A stretch of DNA of 29,322 nucleotides from a virus. The notes under the pieces were generated by a model. It ran no database searches. It saw nothing but the letters and a program-made list of their open reading frames with translations, and had not been told where the DNA came from. The position numbers were made by a program, and so were the translations under genes. Below are positions 689-23,031 of the stretch, in pieces; position 1 is the first letter of the stretch; every line of letters starts with the position of its first letter. Location: positions 1 through 29,322 of IMG/VR virus record IMGVR_UViG_3300030380_000288. One strand, 5' to 3'.

Positions 689-1561
689 ATGGAGGGCAGA
701 TGCGTGCTAATCATTTATCCTTATGCGCAGGAATCGGAGGCATCGACCTTGGGCTGCGAAGAGTGGTCAGAGGCTTGCGAACCGTGGCTATGGTGGAGAG
801 GGAAGGATTCTGTGTCTCGCACCTGGCGTCAAAGATGGAAGCGGGAGAACTGGATCCGTGTCCTATCTACCCGGACCTACTTCGGTTCCCTTGGGACAAG
901 TATCGAGGACTTGTGGATATCGTCTCTGGTGGCTTCCCGTGTCAACCTTTTAGCCACGCTGGAAGTCGCAAAGCCACCGAAGATAGCCGACACCTCTGGC
1001 CCCACATCAGAGCAGGAGTCTCTGTTCTCCGACCGAGCTTTTGCTTCTTCGAGAACGTCGATGGGATCGCCTCAGCCAAGTCACCCGGATACCACTCAGT
1101 TCTCCACCATGTCCTCAGCGACTTGGAAGAAATGGGTTTCAGGGCAACGGCGGGACAGTTCTCAGCGGAGGAAGTTGGCGCGCCACACCTGCGGAAGAGA
1201 TGGTTTATCTTGGCCCACTCCAGATGTAACGATGCGGCCACACGAGGGAAATGTGAGGCTGCTTCGGAAGGGAGTGGAGAACGGTATGGACAAAGCGGAA
1301 GCGGATGCGATGCTGGGCCGGGACATAGCGAAGCCTCAAGGGAAGTTAAAGGCTTGGCCTACTCCGACAGCGAGAGATTGGAAGGGTGGAAACAACCCCT
1401 CACAGAATGTTCCAACCAATGGCCTGTTGGGCCGAGCTGTCCCCAGAGATCCGACGAGCCTCCCCGGACAACTCAACCCGGACTGGGTGGACACGTTGAT
1501 GGGGTTTCCAATCGGGTGGACAGGCTTAGGGCATTGGGAAACGCAGTCGTGCCTCAAGTAG
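689..1561 (+). CDS. Overlapping +1-frame ORF with WPTPTA / LNPxWV-GFPxGWT signature
   Basis: This 290-codon frame runs through almost the whole methyltransferase gene, shifted by +1. Its C-terminal half carries WPTP twice (SWPTPDVTM and AWPTPTARDWKGG) and ends with LNPDWVDTLMGFPIGWTGL. I recognise these as a signature that recurs in phage proteins encoded beside C5 methyltransferases. The two WPTP copies lie exactly opposite the LAHS and LAYS repeats of the methyltransferase frame, and the GWT end lies just before ALGNAVVPQ, so both frames look constrained. The first ATG (689) has only a poor ribosome site, and internal ATGs at 1061 and 1109 have none that I can see. The true start, or a frameshift route of expression, is therefore open. 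The function is unknown. Confidence 0.5.
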   Translation: MEGRCVLIIYPYAQESEASTLGCEEWSEACEPWLWWRGKDSVSRTWRQRWKRENWIRVLSTRTYFGSLGTSIEDLWISSLVASRVNLLATLEVAKPPKIADTSGPTSEQESLFSDRAFASSRTSMGSPQPSHPDTTQFSTMSSATWKKWVSGQRRDSSQRRKLARHTCGRDGLSWPTPDVTMRPHEGNVRLLRKGVENGMDKAEADAMLGRDIAKPQGKLKAWPTPTARDWKGGNNPSQNVPTNGLLGRAVPRDPTSLPGQLNPDWVDTLMGFPIGWTGLGHWETQSCLK

Positions 1562-1614
1562 CCGCTACAGCTTTTAGCACCCTGTACCATCAACTCGTTG
1601 CAGCCCCCGACTAA
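700..1614 (+). CDS. C5-cytosine DNA methyltransferase (Dcm-like)
   Basis: A 304-residue DNA (cytosine-5) methyltransferase that transfers a methyl group from S-adenosylmethionine to cytosine. The conserved motifs appear in order: motif I near residues 6-17 (LSLCAGIGGIDLGL), motif IV with the catalytic cysteine (GGFPCQPFSHAG, about 77-89), motif VI (FFENV), motif VIII (RKRWFILA), a variable target-recognition region of about 95 residues, and motif IX/X (DRLRALGNAVVPQVA). The start is ATG 700, with GGAGGG at 691-696 close upstream. No cognate restriction endonuclease is visible, so it is probably an orphan enzyme protecting phage DNA from host restriction. The same DNA has a long second open frame with its own recognisable motifs; see the overlapping entry. 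Confidence 0.93.
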   Translation: MRANHLSLCAGIGGIDLGLRRVVRGLRTVAMVEREGFCVSHLASKMEAGELDPCPIYPDLLRFPWDKYRGLVDIVSGGFPCQPFSHAGSRKATEDSRHLWPHIRAGVSVLRPSFCFFENVDGIASAKSPGYHSVLHHVLSDLEEMGFRATAGQFSAEEVGAPHLRKRWFILAHSRCNDAATRGKCEAASEGSGERYGQSGSGCDAGPGHSEASREVKGLAYSDSERLEGWKQPLTECSNQWPVGPSCPQRSDEPPRTTQPGLGGHVDGVSNRVDRLRALGNAVVPQVAATAFSTLYHQLVAAPD

Positions 1615-2941: not shown

Positions 2942-2987
2942 AATCATAATCCGCGTGTCGGGGGTTCAAGTCCCTCCTCCGCTACCA
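2942..2987 (+). other. attP: attP core: 3' half of a CAU-anticodon tRNA gene
   Basis: From the anticodon loop to the CCA end this matches a tRNA: anticodon CAT at 2945-2947, TCCGC anticodon-stem strand, GTGTC variable segment, a T arm with GTTCAAGTC, acceptor strand CTCCGCT, then ACCA ending at 2987. The sequence upstream of 2942 cannot pair to complete the anticodon stem, so it is a fragment, not a working tRNA. CAU indicates elongator tRNA-Met, or tRNA-Ile2, which shares CAU before modification. The expected bacterial attB is the 3' half of that tRNA gene, with a 5' acceptor strand AGCGGAG. This identity can be used to find the host. Confidence 0.85.
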
Positions 2988-3010
2988 GATTACGGCCACC
3001 CTGATTCGCA

Positions 3011-3029
3011 TGTGACGAACCATGTGACA
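3011..3029 (+). promoter_or_regulatory. Right (P') arm-type integrase sites, TGTGACG and TGTGACA
   Basis: TGTGACG at 3011-3017 and TGTGACA at 3023-3029 have the same 12-base period as the left pair and lie 23 bases right of the attP core. They end just before the ribosome site (3029-3033) and GTG start (3042) of the RNA polymerase, so bound integrase could hinder its transcription. This is an inference from repeat geometry. Confidence 0.5.
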
Positions 3030-3041
3030 AGGAACGTCAGG

Positions 3042-5423
3042 GTGCGACAACACGATCTTGAAATGGAAATGATCAAGGCCGGTGCTGAGAGGTATCAGGC
3101 AAGGGTCGAGCGTGCCAAGGTGGTGAAGGTAGAAACTTCTCACCCTGCTGGTCAGCGAATGCTACAAGCTGCTGTTACCAAGAGTGCGGAAGGTTTCACA
3201 AGGTGGATCCAGCACGCCAAGACAACTGCGGGTCCACGCCACGGCTGCCTCAAATATCTGGAGCAACTCAAGCCCCAGGTGTTGGCGGCATTGACAGCCA
3301 AGTGCATCCTTGATGCCATCAGTCAGCACCGCAAACTTCCTACCACAGCGATAATGATTGGCACTCACATCGAGGATGAGATCCGCACGCTCTACCTCCA
3401 GAAGAATGAGCAATCCATCTATCGTGAGCTTGACTTCATCGACCGCCACAAGTCACCCATTACTCGGTCCTTTGCTCTGCGTCGTGTGATGCGGAAGCAC
3501 AATGTTGTGTTGCCTATCTTCGAGGGCAGGGACAAGGCCAAGGTTGGGTTGACTTGTGTTGAAATCTTCAGGCAATCTACGGATCTGGTGGAGATCAAAC
3601 TCCGCAAAGACCCCAACGGTAAAGAGCACCAGTGGCTTGCTCCCTCGGATGACTTCTTGGCTTGGATGAAGAAGGCCCATGCTCACCTTGAGATGTTGTC
3701 GCCGATCTTCATGCCGATGATTGAGAAGCCTATGCCCTACACCAATGTGTTCTTTGGGGGGTATCAGACTGGGATCTTCAAGCGTCGGCCTATGGTCAAG
3801 ACGCAAGACAAGCATCATATTGACACCATCGCTCAGGCCCCCATGCCTGAAGTCTACGACGCATTGAACCGCGTGCAGAACACACCCATGCGGGTCAACT
3901 CAAGAATGCTTGAGGTTGCCAAGTGGGTCTGGGAAAATCAGCATCCCATCGGCGACTTACCTACGAGTGATGACGAGCCATTGCCCGCCAAGCCTGTGGA
4001 CATTGATACGAATGAGGACGCCCGCAAAGAGTGGCGAAGAGCTGCGGCCCGGATGCACATGCACAACGAGCGGAACCGCTCCCGTCGCCTGCAAGTGCTG
4101 ACCACTCTCAGTCTTGCAGAGAAGTTTGATGGTCAACGTATCTGGTATCCCCACACGCTCGACTTCCGTGGTCGTGCTTACCCTCAGCCCTACTTCTTGC
4201 AGCCTCAAGGCAACGCCTTCGCCCGCTCCCTGCTGACATTTGATGACAGTGTGGTGATGGACGAGGTGGGTGAGAAGTGGTTGTCCATTCATGTGGCGAA
4301 CAACTGGGGGCTAGACAAGAAGTCCATTGAAGAACGCCTGCGGTGGGTGCAGGACAACCAGAAGCTGATCCTACGCATTGGTCAAGATCCGACAGGCAAC
4401 ATGGATTGGTCAGAAGCGGACGAACCTTTTGCCTTTGTTGCTGCGTGCATGGAGTACGCGGAGATGAAGAACACCAAGGGTAAGTTCCACACACGATTAC
4501 CCGTGGGGATTGACGCCTGCAACCAAGGGCTTCAACTCTACGGCCTTATGCTCCGGGATGAGGACACACTCAAATCCACCAACTGTCTCCCTACAACTCT
4601 CCCTAACGACCTGTACCAACAGGTGTGTGACAGTGTGATAACGATGCTGGAGCAATCCAGTGATCCGCTCGCAAAGCAGTGGATGGAGTATGGCCTCAAC
4701 CGGAGCACCACCAAACGACAGACCATGACTTTGCCTTACGGCTCAACTGTTTATTCGTGCCGTGAGTACACCATCAAGTGGTTCATTGACAGCATGAAGA
4801 AGAAGGGGAACCCATTCGGCAATGAGATGTTGAAGGCTTGCCGGTTCCTGTCCGAGCTGATCTGGGCCGCCATCAACATGAATGTGTCAGCAGCTCGTCG
4901 TGGTATGGACTGGCTCCAGCATTGTGCTGAGGTCTGCTTGGACAATGGTGTGATCCCACAATGGGTGACACCTTTAGGCCTGCCGGTTCACATGCGGTAC
5001 GTCAACCAGACCAAACGGAACATCAAGACCCAGGTCTTTGGGACCGTGAGGCAGTGCCGCATTCGTGAGGACACCGAGAAGTTAAGTAAGCGGAAGAGCA
5101 TCAACTCGATGGCTCCCAACTTTGTTCACTCCTTGGATGGCTTCGGAGGTCTTGCAGGAAAAACTGTGAATTTAGCCTTTGAATCTGGCGTTCGTTCTTT
5201 TATGATGATCCACGATCAATACAGCACAGTGGCTCCTCATGTCTCAACGGTTGCGGCATGCGTCCGCGAAGCCACTGTTAAAATCTTTTCAGGAAATATT
5301 TTGGAGGACTTGCATATCCAACTGTCGGCTTTGCTACCCTCCGATGTACGGCTTGAGTCCCCACCAGAGCAGGGGGACTGCGACATAAGCCAAGTGAGGT
5401 CTGCTCTTTATTATTTCAACTGA
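3042..5423 (+). CDS. T7-type single-subunit DNA-directed RNA polymerase (gp1)
   Basis: About 793 residues, against 883 in T7; it transcribes phage genes from phage promoters. Recognisable blocks are LDFRGRAYPQ with LQPQGNA, motif A GIDACNQGLQLYGLMLRDE (catalytic Asp), motif B with KRQTMTLPYGS, and motif C PNFVHSLDG followed by MMIHDQYST (second catalytic Asp). The C-terminus ends ALYYFN rather than T7 FAFA. The open frame extends upstream to a GTG at 2955, but that lies inside the tRNA fragment. I prefer GTG 3042 (then RQHDLEMEMIKAGAERY, the conserved family start) with AAGGA at 3029-3033. It follows integrase and attP, as in marine temperate-type podoviruses. Confidence 0.95.
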   Translation: MRQHDLEMEMIKAGAERYQARVERAKVVKVETSHPAGQRMLQAAVTKSAEGFTRWIQHAKTTAGPRHGCLKYLEQLKPQVLAALTAKCILDAISQHRKLPTTAIMIGTHIEDEIRTLYLQKNEQSIYRELDFIDRHKSPITRSFALRRVMRKHNVVLPIFEGRDKAKVGLTCVEIFRQSTDLVEIKLRKDPNGKEHQWLAPSDDFLAWMKKAHAHLEMLSPIFMPMIEKPMPYTNVFFGGYQTGIFKRRPMVKTQDKHHIDTIAQAPMPEVYDALNRVQNTPMRVNSRMLEVAKWVWENQHPIGDLPTSDDEPLPAKPVDIDTNEDARKEWRRAAARMHMHNERNRSRRLQVLTTLSLAEKFDGQRIWYPHTLDFRGRAYPQPYFLQPQGNAFARSLLTFDDSVVMDEVGEKWLSIHVANNWGLDKKSIEERLRWVQDNQKLILRIGQDPTGNMDWSEADEPFAFVAACMEYAEMKNTKGKFHTRLPVGIDACNQGLQLYGLMLRDEDTLKSTNCLPTTLPNDLYQQVCDSVITMLEQSSDPLAKQWMEYGLNRSTTKRQTMTLPYGSTVYSCREYTIKWFIDSMKKKGNPFGNEMLKACRFLSELIWAAINMNVSAARRGMDWLQHCAEVCLDNGVIPQWVTPLGLPVHMRYVNQTKRNIKTQVFGTVRQCRIREDTEKLSKRKSINSMAPNFVHSLDGFGGLAGKTVNLAFESGVRSFMMIHDQYSTVAPHVSTVAACVREATVKIFSGNILEDLHIQLSALLPSDVRLESPPEQGDCDISQVRSALYYFN

Positions 5424-20469: not shown

Positions 20470-23031
20470 ATGTCACAATTCACAGCACCCGCAGGCATCC
20501 TTGGCCGTCCCGACTTCTCAGGCGATGACTACACCCTTCAGGCATTCCAGAACCTGTCCAATACTCTTGGTCAGTTGGCAACCACCAACGCTAAGAGAGA
20601 GGTTGAACAAGCCTATGAGTATGGCCTCATGGTTGAGCAACTGGGAGCAGAGGAAGCCAAGAATGCTTCTGAGTTCGGCAAGTTGGTTGACCAAGGAAAG
20701 GTCAGTAATCTCGCCAACTCTTGGATCGAGGTGGGTGGTCAAGTAGGCCGAGCCAAGAAAGACTTCATCTCTTGGTCAACTATGGCTGAAGAGAACATGA
20801 ATCTGTCCCTAGACAACAATCAGTTCGGTTTGCGGGAAGGGGACAACCCAGAAGAGTCTTACAACAACTGGAAAGCCTCTGTGCTGGCGGATCAACGCCA
20901 GAAGATGAATGGTGCTGGGTACTACTACGGTAAGACCTTTGGTGGTCTTATGGACAAGTGGGAGTCCGAGTTCAAGCCTCGGGCATTCAAGGCTCGTGCA
21001 GCTTTGCAGCGTGACGATCTTCGTCGTGGTGTGGCTGACGATATTACGGATAAGGTGAAAAAGAAAGCTAAGGACCTTCCAGGGCTGATGTCCGACCTGA
21101 CCACGATGTTGTCTAACACAGAAAACCGTGGTGCCCTCGGCAACGAGGGATACCGTAAGTACGTCTACGATGTGCTTGAGCAACTTGCCGAAAATCCAGA
21201 TACTGCTGTAGCTGCCAACCATGCCCTTGAGAACATGCGTGAAGAGACGGGCCTCAGGTGGGCAGATCACTACGCAGAAGAGCTCAACGCTTCTGAAAAC
21301 AGGCGTGATGCTGCCTCGATGCCTCAGCTCACTGAAGACGCAAGAGATGCCGTATATCTTGCAATTCAGGCAAACCGAACTAAGGGTGATGATGTTGAGT
21401 TCAAACTGTTGGCTGCCAACATGTCCCACTTGCCTGAAGAGGCCCAACATAAAGCCATTACAGGGGCCCTACGACAAGCCGCTGATGACTTTGTTACTAA
21501 TAAAAACCCTGAAGGCATGGAGGTTCTTCTGGATCAGCTTGAGGACACTAAGTCCCCCACTGGTGAACCTTACAGTGAGGTGATGGGTATTGAGATTGCG
21601 TCGATCCGTAACTATCTCAAGAAGGGCGAAGAAGATGCTGACGCTAAGAAGCTCCAGAAACTTCAACTCGATACCGCTTTGGCTGAAGGTAAGTTGGAGG
21701 GTGCACTGGGCTTTGTCGTAACTGAAATTCAACAAGAGGCGGAGCAGAACGGTGGAGCTGTAGACATCAGTGAAAGAGAAGTCAGAGAAAGAGTTATGGC
21801 CCGCCTAGAGGCTATGGGAGAAGATAGATTCTTCACTGAAGGTGATGTGTTCTTCGATGCTCAAAACTCATTCTTCACAAGTGGTGTGGGTACATTTGCT
21901 TCCTCATATAGAGCCATTGGCGAAGATCAAAGGGAGACAGGTGCGGAGGTTCTCCAACAAATCATTCGAGACAATCCCACTGATGTATCAGCTGCTATCA
22001 GACAACTACAAACGGCGGGCGTAGGTCTAAGGGCGGACACTCTTCAAACAATCAAAGTAAGGCTCGATGGATATTACGAAGCAATGTCGCAGACAAGACA
22101 ATCTTCTCAAGCTACGCACAAGCGGAACTTGATGACAGCACTAGACACAAAGTTTGGATTCAGGGATCTGAGCGAAGGCAAAATTGGTCTTAGTAATTTT
22201 AAAAGTCAATCTCAGATCATTGCAGCAAATGATTTCCTAGATCAACTCGATACTCAATACTCTGAAAGTTTGTCCGCAAAAATAGATGGGTATCAAACTA
22301 TGAACCCTGACGAGCCAATCACTGCTGACATCATGGCAACCTTTGCTGCGGAAGCATCAAAAGAAGTGATTGAAGCAGCGACAGCAGATGGTGCTTTCAC
22401 TTACGAAAGCCCTCAATCCATGATTGAACGCATCAAGGCCGCAGGGGAAGAAAGAGATTTTGGCACACGAGGCTCAGTCTTACCAACTAGTGGGGCCGAA
22501 GTTGGCGGTGGTGCCTTCTTTACGGATAATCTTCAAAAAAACATTGGAGACTTGCGGACAGCAATTCAGAATCAGGACGCATCAACTGCTGCCTCTGAGC
22601 TTGCCTTGATTAGACCTCAAGCTGACAGCCTGATTAACACTGTTGAAAGGGGCATCCAACTAACAGGTCAAAACCTTTCGGCCTACCCCATTTCACGTTT
22701 GTTTACTCAACAACGACCTGTCTCAATCGAAGAACTTGAGAGGGGCACGTTTGATACTGAGCAGGGCCCAGATGACATTTCACTGACAGGCTTCAACTAC
22801 GATCCAACAGTTCAACCCATGTTTGATGGTATGGCTGATCTTGAGTCCGCCATCAAGGAATACAACGATGTTGGATCGGCTGGTGGAGACATTAATACAA
22901 CTCGTATTATTCGGCTTATCAACACAATCAACAAACGAGCGGCAGCGAGTGATGACATTACAGGTGTTCGGAGTTTTGAAGCGTTCCTCAGTTTCCAGAA
23001 AGACCTATTTGAATTTAGAGGGTATAACTAA
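20470..23031 (+). CDS. Internal virion protein gp15-like (ejected core protein)
   Basis: 853 residues (T7 gp15 has 747), mostly helical, charged, and without cysteine in the parts I checked. Early segments such as LQAFQNLSNTLGQLATTNAKREVE and LANSWIEVGGQVGRAKKDF resemble gp15-type core proteins, which with gp16 form the periplasmic conduit for DNA entry. AAGGAT lies just before ATG 20470. Bases around 22080-22700 are AT-richer (38% GC at 22141-22200), another mosaic patch. The stop overlaps the next start (TAATG). Confidence 0.85.
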   Translation: MSQFTAPAGILGRPDFSGDDYTLQAFQNLSNTLGQLATTNAKREVEQAYEYGLMVEQLGAEEAKNASEFGKLVDQGKVSNLANSWIEVGGQVGRAKKDFISWSTMAEENMNLSLDNNQFGLREGDNPEESYNNWKASVLADQRQKMNGAGYYYGKTFGGLMDKWESEFKPRAFKARAALQRDDLRRGVADDITDKVKKKAKDLPGLMSDLTTMLSNTENRGALGNEGYRKYVYDVLEQLAENPDTAVAANHALENMREETGLRWADHYAEELNASENRRDAASMPQLTEDARDAVYLAIQANRTKGDDVEFKLLAANMSHLPEEAQHKAITGALRQAADDFVTNKNPEGMEVLLDQLEDTKSPTGEPYSEVMGIEIASIRNYLKKGEEDADAKKLQKLQLDTALAEGKLEGALGFVVTEIQQEAEQNGGAVDISEREVRERVMARLEAMGEDRFFTEGDVFFDAQNSFFTSGVGTFASSYRAIGEDQRETGAEVLQQIIRDNPTDVSAAIRQLQTAGVGLRADTLQTIKVRLDGYYEAMSQTRQSSQATHKRNLMTALDTKFGFRDLSEGKIGLSNFKSQSQIIAANDFLDQLDTQYSESLSAKIDGYQTMNPDEPITADIMATFAAEASKEVIEAATADGAFTYESPQSMIERIKAAGEERDFGTRGSVLPTSGAEVGGGAFFTDNLQKNIGDLRTAIQNQDASTAASELALIRPQADSLINTVERGIQLTGQNLSAYPISRLFTQQRPVSIEELERGTFDTEQGPDDISLTGFNYDPTVQPMFDGMADLESAIKEYNDVGSAGGDINTTRIIRLINTINKRAAASDDITGVRSFEAFLSFQKDLFEFRGYN

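Follow-up and report, generated by a model that had tools for sequence, protein, structure and literature searches.

Monomeric C5 cytosine methyltransferases such as M.HhaI and Dcm hold motif IX and the target recognition domain in the same chain as motifs I-VIII and X. Two described enzymes depart from this plan. M.AquI (CYCGRG), a naturally split C5 methyltransferase, has two subunits, and its small subunit contains the distal variable region together with motifs IX and X. M.EcoHK31I (YGGCCR) also consists of two polypeptides: its large subunit carries motifs I-VIII and X without motif IX, and only motif IX is located on the small one (PMC3404938).

The locus described here lies in a window of 29,322 nucleotides, positions 1 to 29,322 of the IMG/VR virus record IMGVR_UViG_3300030380_000288. 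Its methyltransferase, here named alpha, shares motifs I-VIII and X with M.HhaI and Dcm, but motif IX is not recognisable in its frame. A second protein, beta, is nested in the +1 frame. The nesting of a small-subunit gene in a large-subunit gene in another frame also has a possible precedent: Lee, Kam and Shaw reportedly found in 1995 that the beta gene of M.EcoHK31I lies inside alpha in this way. The likeness to M.EcoHK31I concerns the described motif layout. Unlike in M.EcoHK31I, beta in the subgroup to which the window belongs spans nearly all of alpha, shares a ribosome site with it through adjoining start codons, and carries WPTP modules. In contrast to M.AquI, alpha here keeps motif X, and the +1 frame accommodates beta by overprinting. 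The locus is probably a split C5 methyltransferase working like M.EcoHK31I, in which beta supplies motif IX and specificity; this reading is drawn from sequence comparison.

Alpha (700-1614, + strand, like beta and the motifs of this locus given below) is a predicted protein of 304 aa with matches to PF00145 (1.3e-28) and PHROG_363 (8.4e-59). In addition to this homology it has the catalytic Pro-Cys, ENV and motif VIII expected of PF00145. Motif IV with the catalytic cysteine (GFPCQP, 931-948), motif VI (ENVDG, 1051-1065), motif VIII (LRKRWF, 1189-1206) and motif X (RALGNAVVPQ, 1528-1557) were assigned by family knowledge. As the first-pass annotation had reported, the +1 frame relative to the methyltransferase ORF stays open for 290 codons (ORF 689-1561). 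Its WPTP motifs do stand opposite the LAHS and LAYS repeats of the enzyme: module 1 (WPTPDV, 1211-1228) faces LAHS at 1210-1221, and module 2 (WPTPTARD, 1355-1378) faces LAYS at 1354-1365. LNPDWVDTLMGFPIGWT (1472-1522) is found just ahead of motif X. A profile search of the +1 ORF, which had been suggested, matched PHROG_1008 at 1e-13. This family is labelled "DNA methyltransferase" and its profile mixes two frames, because positions 36-279 correspond to beta and positions 289-324 match motif X of alpha in the other frame. A match of beta to PF10880 was weak, below the family cutoff, and was rejected.

Elsewhere in the window, a tyrosine-type integrase (1784-2845) adjoins a single-subunit RNA polymerase (2955-5423), and T7-like replication, head and tail genes are located downstream of the polymerase. 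This gene content suggests a temperate podovirus of the T7-like kind. Just past the integrase, gggggttcaagtccctcctccgctacca (2963-2990) resembles a tRNA 3' end and is a possible attP core; ARAGORN and Rfam searches at 2963-2990 gave no match, as expected for a 3' tRNA fragment. The ORFs 122-562 and 20470-23031 had no PHROG match at E 0.001.

The openness of the +1 frame was compared with a null model in which the alpha protein and codon usage were held fixed and synonymous codons were permuted. For the window, a +1 run of at least 285 codons was seen in 18 of 20,000 such shuffles. The same model was applied to 160 loci for which the alpha profile was the sole criterion of choice; viral contigs and bacterial genomes supplied 80 each. 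In 143 of the 160 the longest +1 run was at or beyond the 5% tail. All 44 loci below 50% GC were significant (mean +1 runs of 257-273 codons, compared with 92-104 expected). Stop codons were also mapped in an alignment of 126 non-redundant relatives, between motif IV (PCQ) and a point some 20 codons upstream of motif X. Only 3 stops were observed in the +1 frame of this region against approximately 390 expected from shuffles, while the third frame, used as a control, was ordinary with 857 stops against approximately 966. Upstream of motif IV the depletion of +1 stops is only partial, because beta starts later in one subgroup.

Frequent +1 stops in homologous genes, which the first-pass annotation had named as evidence against its proposal of dual coding, were thus not seen across the 126 relatives. 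The dual coding of the alpha/beta locus is, on these tests, near certain to be real and to be conserved across many phages and prophages. A sequencing frameshift or a pseudogene was ruled out, since the arrangement recurs in nearly all relatives, and the synonymous shuffles, for which the third frame served as control, ruled out a by-product of composition. It is scarcely credible that the +1 frame is untranslated and that its openness and motifs merely follow from the alpha protein or from base composition. High-GC members taken alone are compatible with such an origin, as 8 of the 32 loci with at least 60% GC lack a significant +1 run, but the shuffles, which keep both the alpha protein and codon usage, give their strongest signal in the low-GC members, and the +1 stop map contradicts it directly. 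The same explanation is also opposed by the suppression of third-position change and by loci in which beta was kept over a decayed alpha or outside any overlap, both described below.

Selection on the two proteins was analysed in each direction. In a shuffle-based conservation test the beta residues are more alike than the constraint on alpha explains, most strongly at LNPxWVEWLMGFPIGWT, the WPTP modules, TWK and the N-terminal MWR..RTW..RWKR..W. The control frame was used as the yardstick because kinship among the sequences inflates these scores; the C-terminal block reached a summed score of 65 for beta, compared with 26 for this control. In the reverse test, where the synonymous codons of beta were shuffled, alpha was constrained at PCQ, ENV, motifs VIII and X and a WPxRPG..W block, and hardly constrained opposite LNPxWVEWLMGFPI of beta. 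The LAD/LAH columns opposite WPTP are under weak constraint in the alpha frame and strong constraint in the beta frame. The LAHS/LAYS repeats are therefore largely a shadow of WPTP, in agreement with the suggestion that overprinting had shaped them. Within the overlap, change at codon position 3 is 1.28 times that at position 1. The corresponding ratio is 1.90 for ordinary C5 methyltransferases and 2.07 for neighbouring ORFs, the latter being a control chosen by length in which a few ORFs may be false. Free variation at sites silent in alpha, the other outcome named in advance as contrary, was accordingly absent. These patterns of change show that the alpha and beta frames are both under protein-level selection.

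Translation starts were assigned by a simple rule rather than experimentally. The start region of the window reads GGAGGG-CAG-ATG-C-GTG. The Shine-Dalgarno sequence GGAGGG (691-696) is placed for the alpha start ATG 700 and likely for GTG 704, which shares it and is the likelier start of beta than the alternative ATG 689; from GTG 704 beta would be a protein of 285 aa (704-1561). The same layout, with both starts together under a single Shine-Dalgarno sequence, is found in other loci of the window's subgroup. Overlapping start codons of the form ATGTG (beta ATG, alpha GTG) occur in 34 of 89 loci and ATGnATG-type spacing in 15; most of the remaining loci have other short distances. In a second subgroup, mostly from bacterial genomes, an internal ATG starts beta, often about 15 codons before PCQ. 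A Shine-Dalgarno sequence of at least 5 bases precedes 12 of 29 first internal ATGs, compared with 4% of internal ATGs (p 5e-10). Judging from these signals, beta is very likely translated independently.

The first-pass annotation had considered two products for the overlap, a second protein or a frameshift fusion. The start signals of beta favour the former. A programmed frameshift would join alpha motifs I-VIII and the C-terminal part of beta in one chain, with no separate beta, and the hybrid would hold both motifs I-VIII and motif IX. Such a join is in fact created by an indel at one locus (L189, 1692-2678), where a frame change near the end connects alpha motifs I-VIII to the beta segment LNPEWVEWLMGFPIGWT. 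Its origin may be a rare fusion, a mutation that shifted the frame or an error in the assembly, damage or misassembly being considered because motif X is left out of frame. As a general mechanism frameshifting is very improbable: openness and conservation of the beta frame extend well upstream of any position at which a shift would be useful, up to its own signalled start codon, and in another locus (L244) a second beta with its own ATG lies over a crippled alpha frame.

Alpha and beta are closely associated. Among loci selected by beta alone, 78 of 80 have beta overlapping alpha in +1, and one of the others (L210) shows the same arrangement at a contig edge. The last, L244, is a special case. 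It contains a nested pair followed by a second beta (beta2, 987-1955) of 322 aa with several WPTP modules, and in the alpha frame underlying beta2 motifs I-IV are missing and motif X is broken. In this single case beta was retained where alpha decayed. The arrangement hints that a single alpha may use two betas. In L176, from an Armatimonadetes genome, one ORF encodes alpha with motif X and then WRTP, WATP and NPDWQEILMGFPPGWT. The alpha part has no LAD repeats and the +1 frame contains 24 stops. Read from its ORF, this single case is a natural, non-overlapping alpha-beta fusion. The retention of WPTP-like modules beside an alpha part free of LAD repeats again fits the view that the repeats result from overprinting. 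Neither the viral contigs nor 200 genomes of the phylum of L176 yielded further fusions of this kind, and only matches to the alpha part were found. The fusion in L176 and the duplicated beta in L244 both support a partnership between alpha and beta.

Beta probably contributes the motif that alpha lacks. The alpha family profile matches M.HhaI residues 12-173, which comprise motifs I-VIII, and the variable stretch of alpha leads directly into motif X. Motif IX of ordinary enzymes reads RRLTPREMLRLQGFPDSF and the C-terminal end of beta reads GQLNPxWVEWLMGFPIGWT. When beta was compared with 12 ordinary enzymes using hhalign, the best local match fell exactly on motif IX and was weak (P 0.08). 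Of the 160 loci, 125 have a motif IX-like string in the +1 frame and 2 have one in frame 0. The motif IX-like segment of beta in the window (1472-1522) is also its most strongly constrained block. The counterpart in M.EcoHK31I is motif IX on a separate small polypeptide; here the beta block resembles motif IX at the hhalign level given above, and start signals point to its separate translation. This likeness of GFPxGWT to motif IX and the M.EcoHK31I precedent go beyond the first-pass annotation.

Beta might instead be a real nested protein that forms no part of the methyltransferase; it could, for instance, regulate alpha or act independently against restriction. The weak motif IX match would agree with this, as would the structural results: the beta profile had no match among solved structures, and AlphaFold models, whether of isolated beta or of the fusion in L176, were poor in the beta parts. 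Such a role is nevertheless unlikely, as the most conserved block of beta resembles exactly the motif missing from alpha, beta without alpha is almost never found, and a natural alpha-beta fusion exists.

The subunit reading suggests that one DNA stretch would encode a two-subunit C5 cytosine DNA methyltransferase. Alpha, in frame 0, would contribute motif X as well as motifs I-VIII, which serve cofactor binding and catalysis, and beta, in +1, would bring the WPTP-module region and the segment resembling motif IX. Ribosomes would initiate alpha and beta from one or two nearby sites. Beta would then join alpha and complete the small domain for target-sequence recognition, and phage DNA would thereby be methylated, presumably against restriction. 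We infer a physical complex, motif IX acting in trans, a role of beta in specificity and an anti-restriction role. A wider proposal is offered tentatively: dual coding may be general in a common class of phage C5 methyltransferases, with beta serving as a specificity subunit that can be exchanged. The target would be set by the WPTP modules, whose number varies, and additional copies of beta would give a single alpha further targets. The overlapping start codons ATGTG, served by a single ribosome site, would keep the subunits in step.

The same nested +1 beta is found in several annotated phages: in Paenibacillus phages Diva (gp50) and Lily (gp63), where it is called an "internal gene", and in Escherichia phage K1ind2 (ORF28, "Mte8-like"), where the label is no more than a lead towards kinship with M.EcoHK31I. 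These depositor annotations are single cases, and no family, function or coding test was found for them. Escherichia coli phage N15 has the same +1 frame, unannotated, at gene 58. In a Bacteroides finegoldii plasmid (L324, NZ_OY725938.1) the nested locus is annotated only as an alpha fragment and a beta fragment. Dual-coded loci seem to confuse gene callers. No description of the family or of its dual coding was found in the literature searched, which yielded nothing closer than papers naming M.EcoHK31I and a remark in passing on "Mte8-like". A precedent therefore exists, and the breadth and the shared-start arrangement look new.

If this reading is true, phages contain a pair of genes overlapping on the same strand that is both very long and widely conserved, with runs of up to about 520 codons and members in many phyla, and many genomes annotate just one of two real proteins at such loci. 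The family would allow dual coding, subunit splitting, fusion and duplication to be compared, and target recognition in these methyltransferases would become directly testable. M.EcoHK31I would turn from a curiosity into an example of a broad class.
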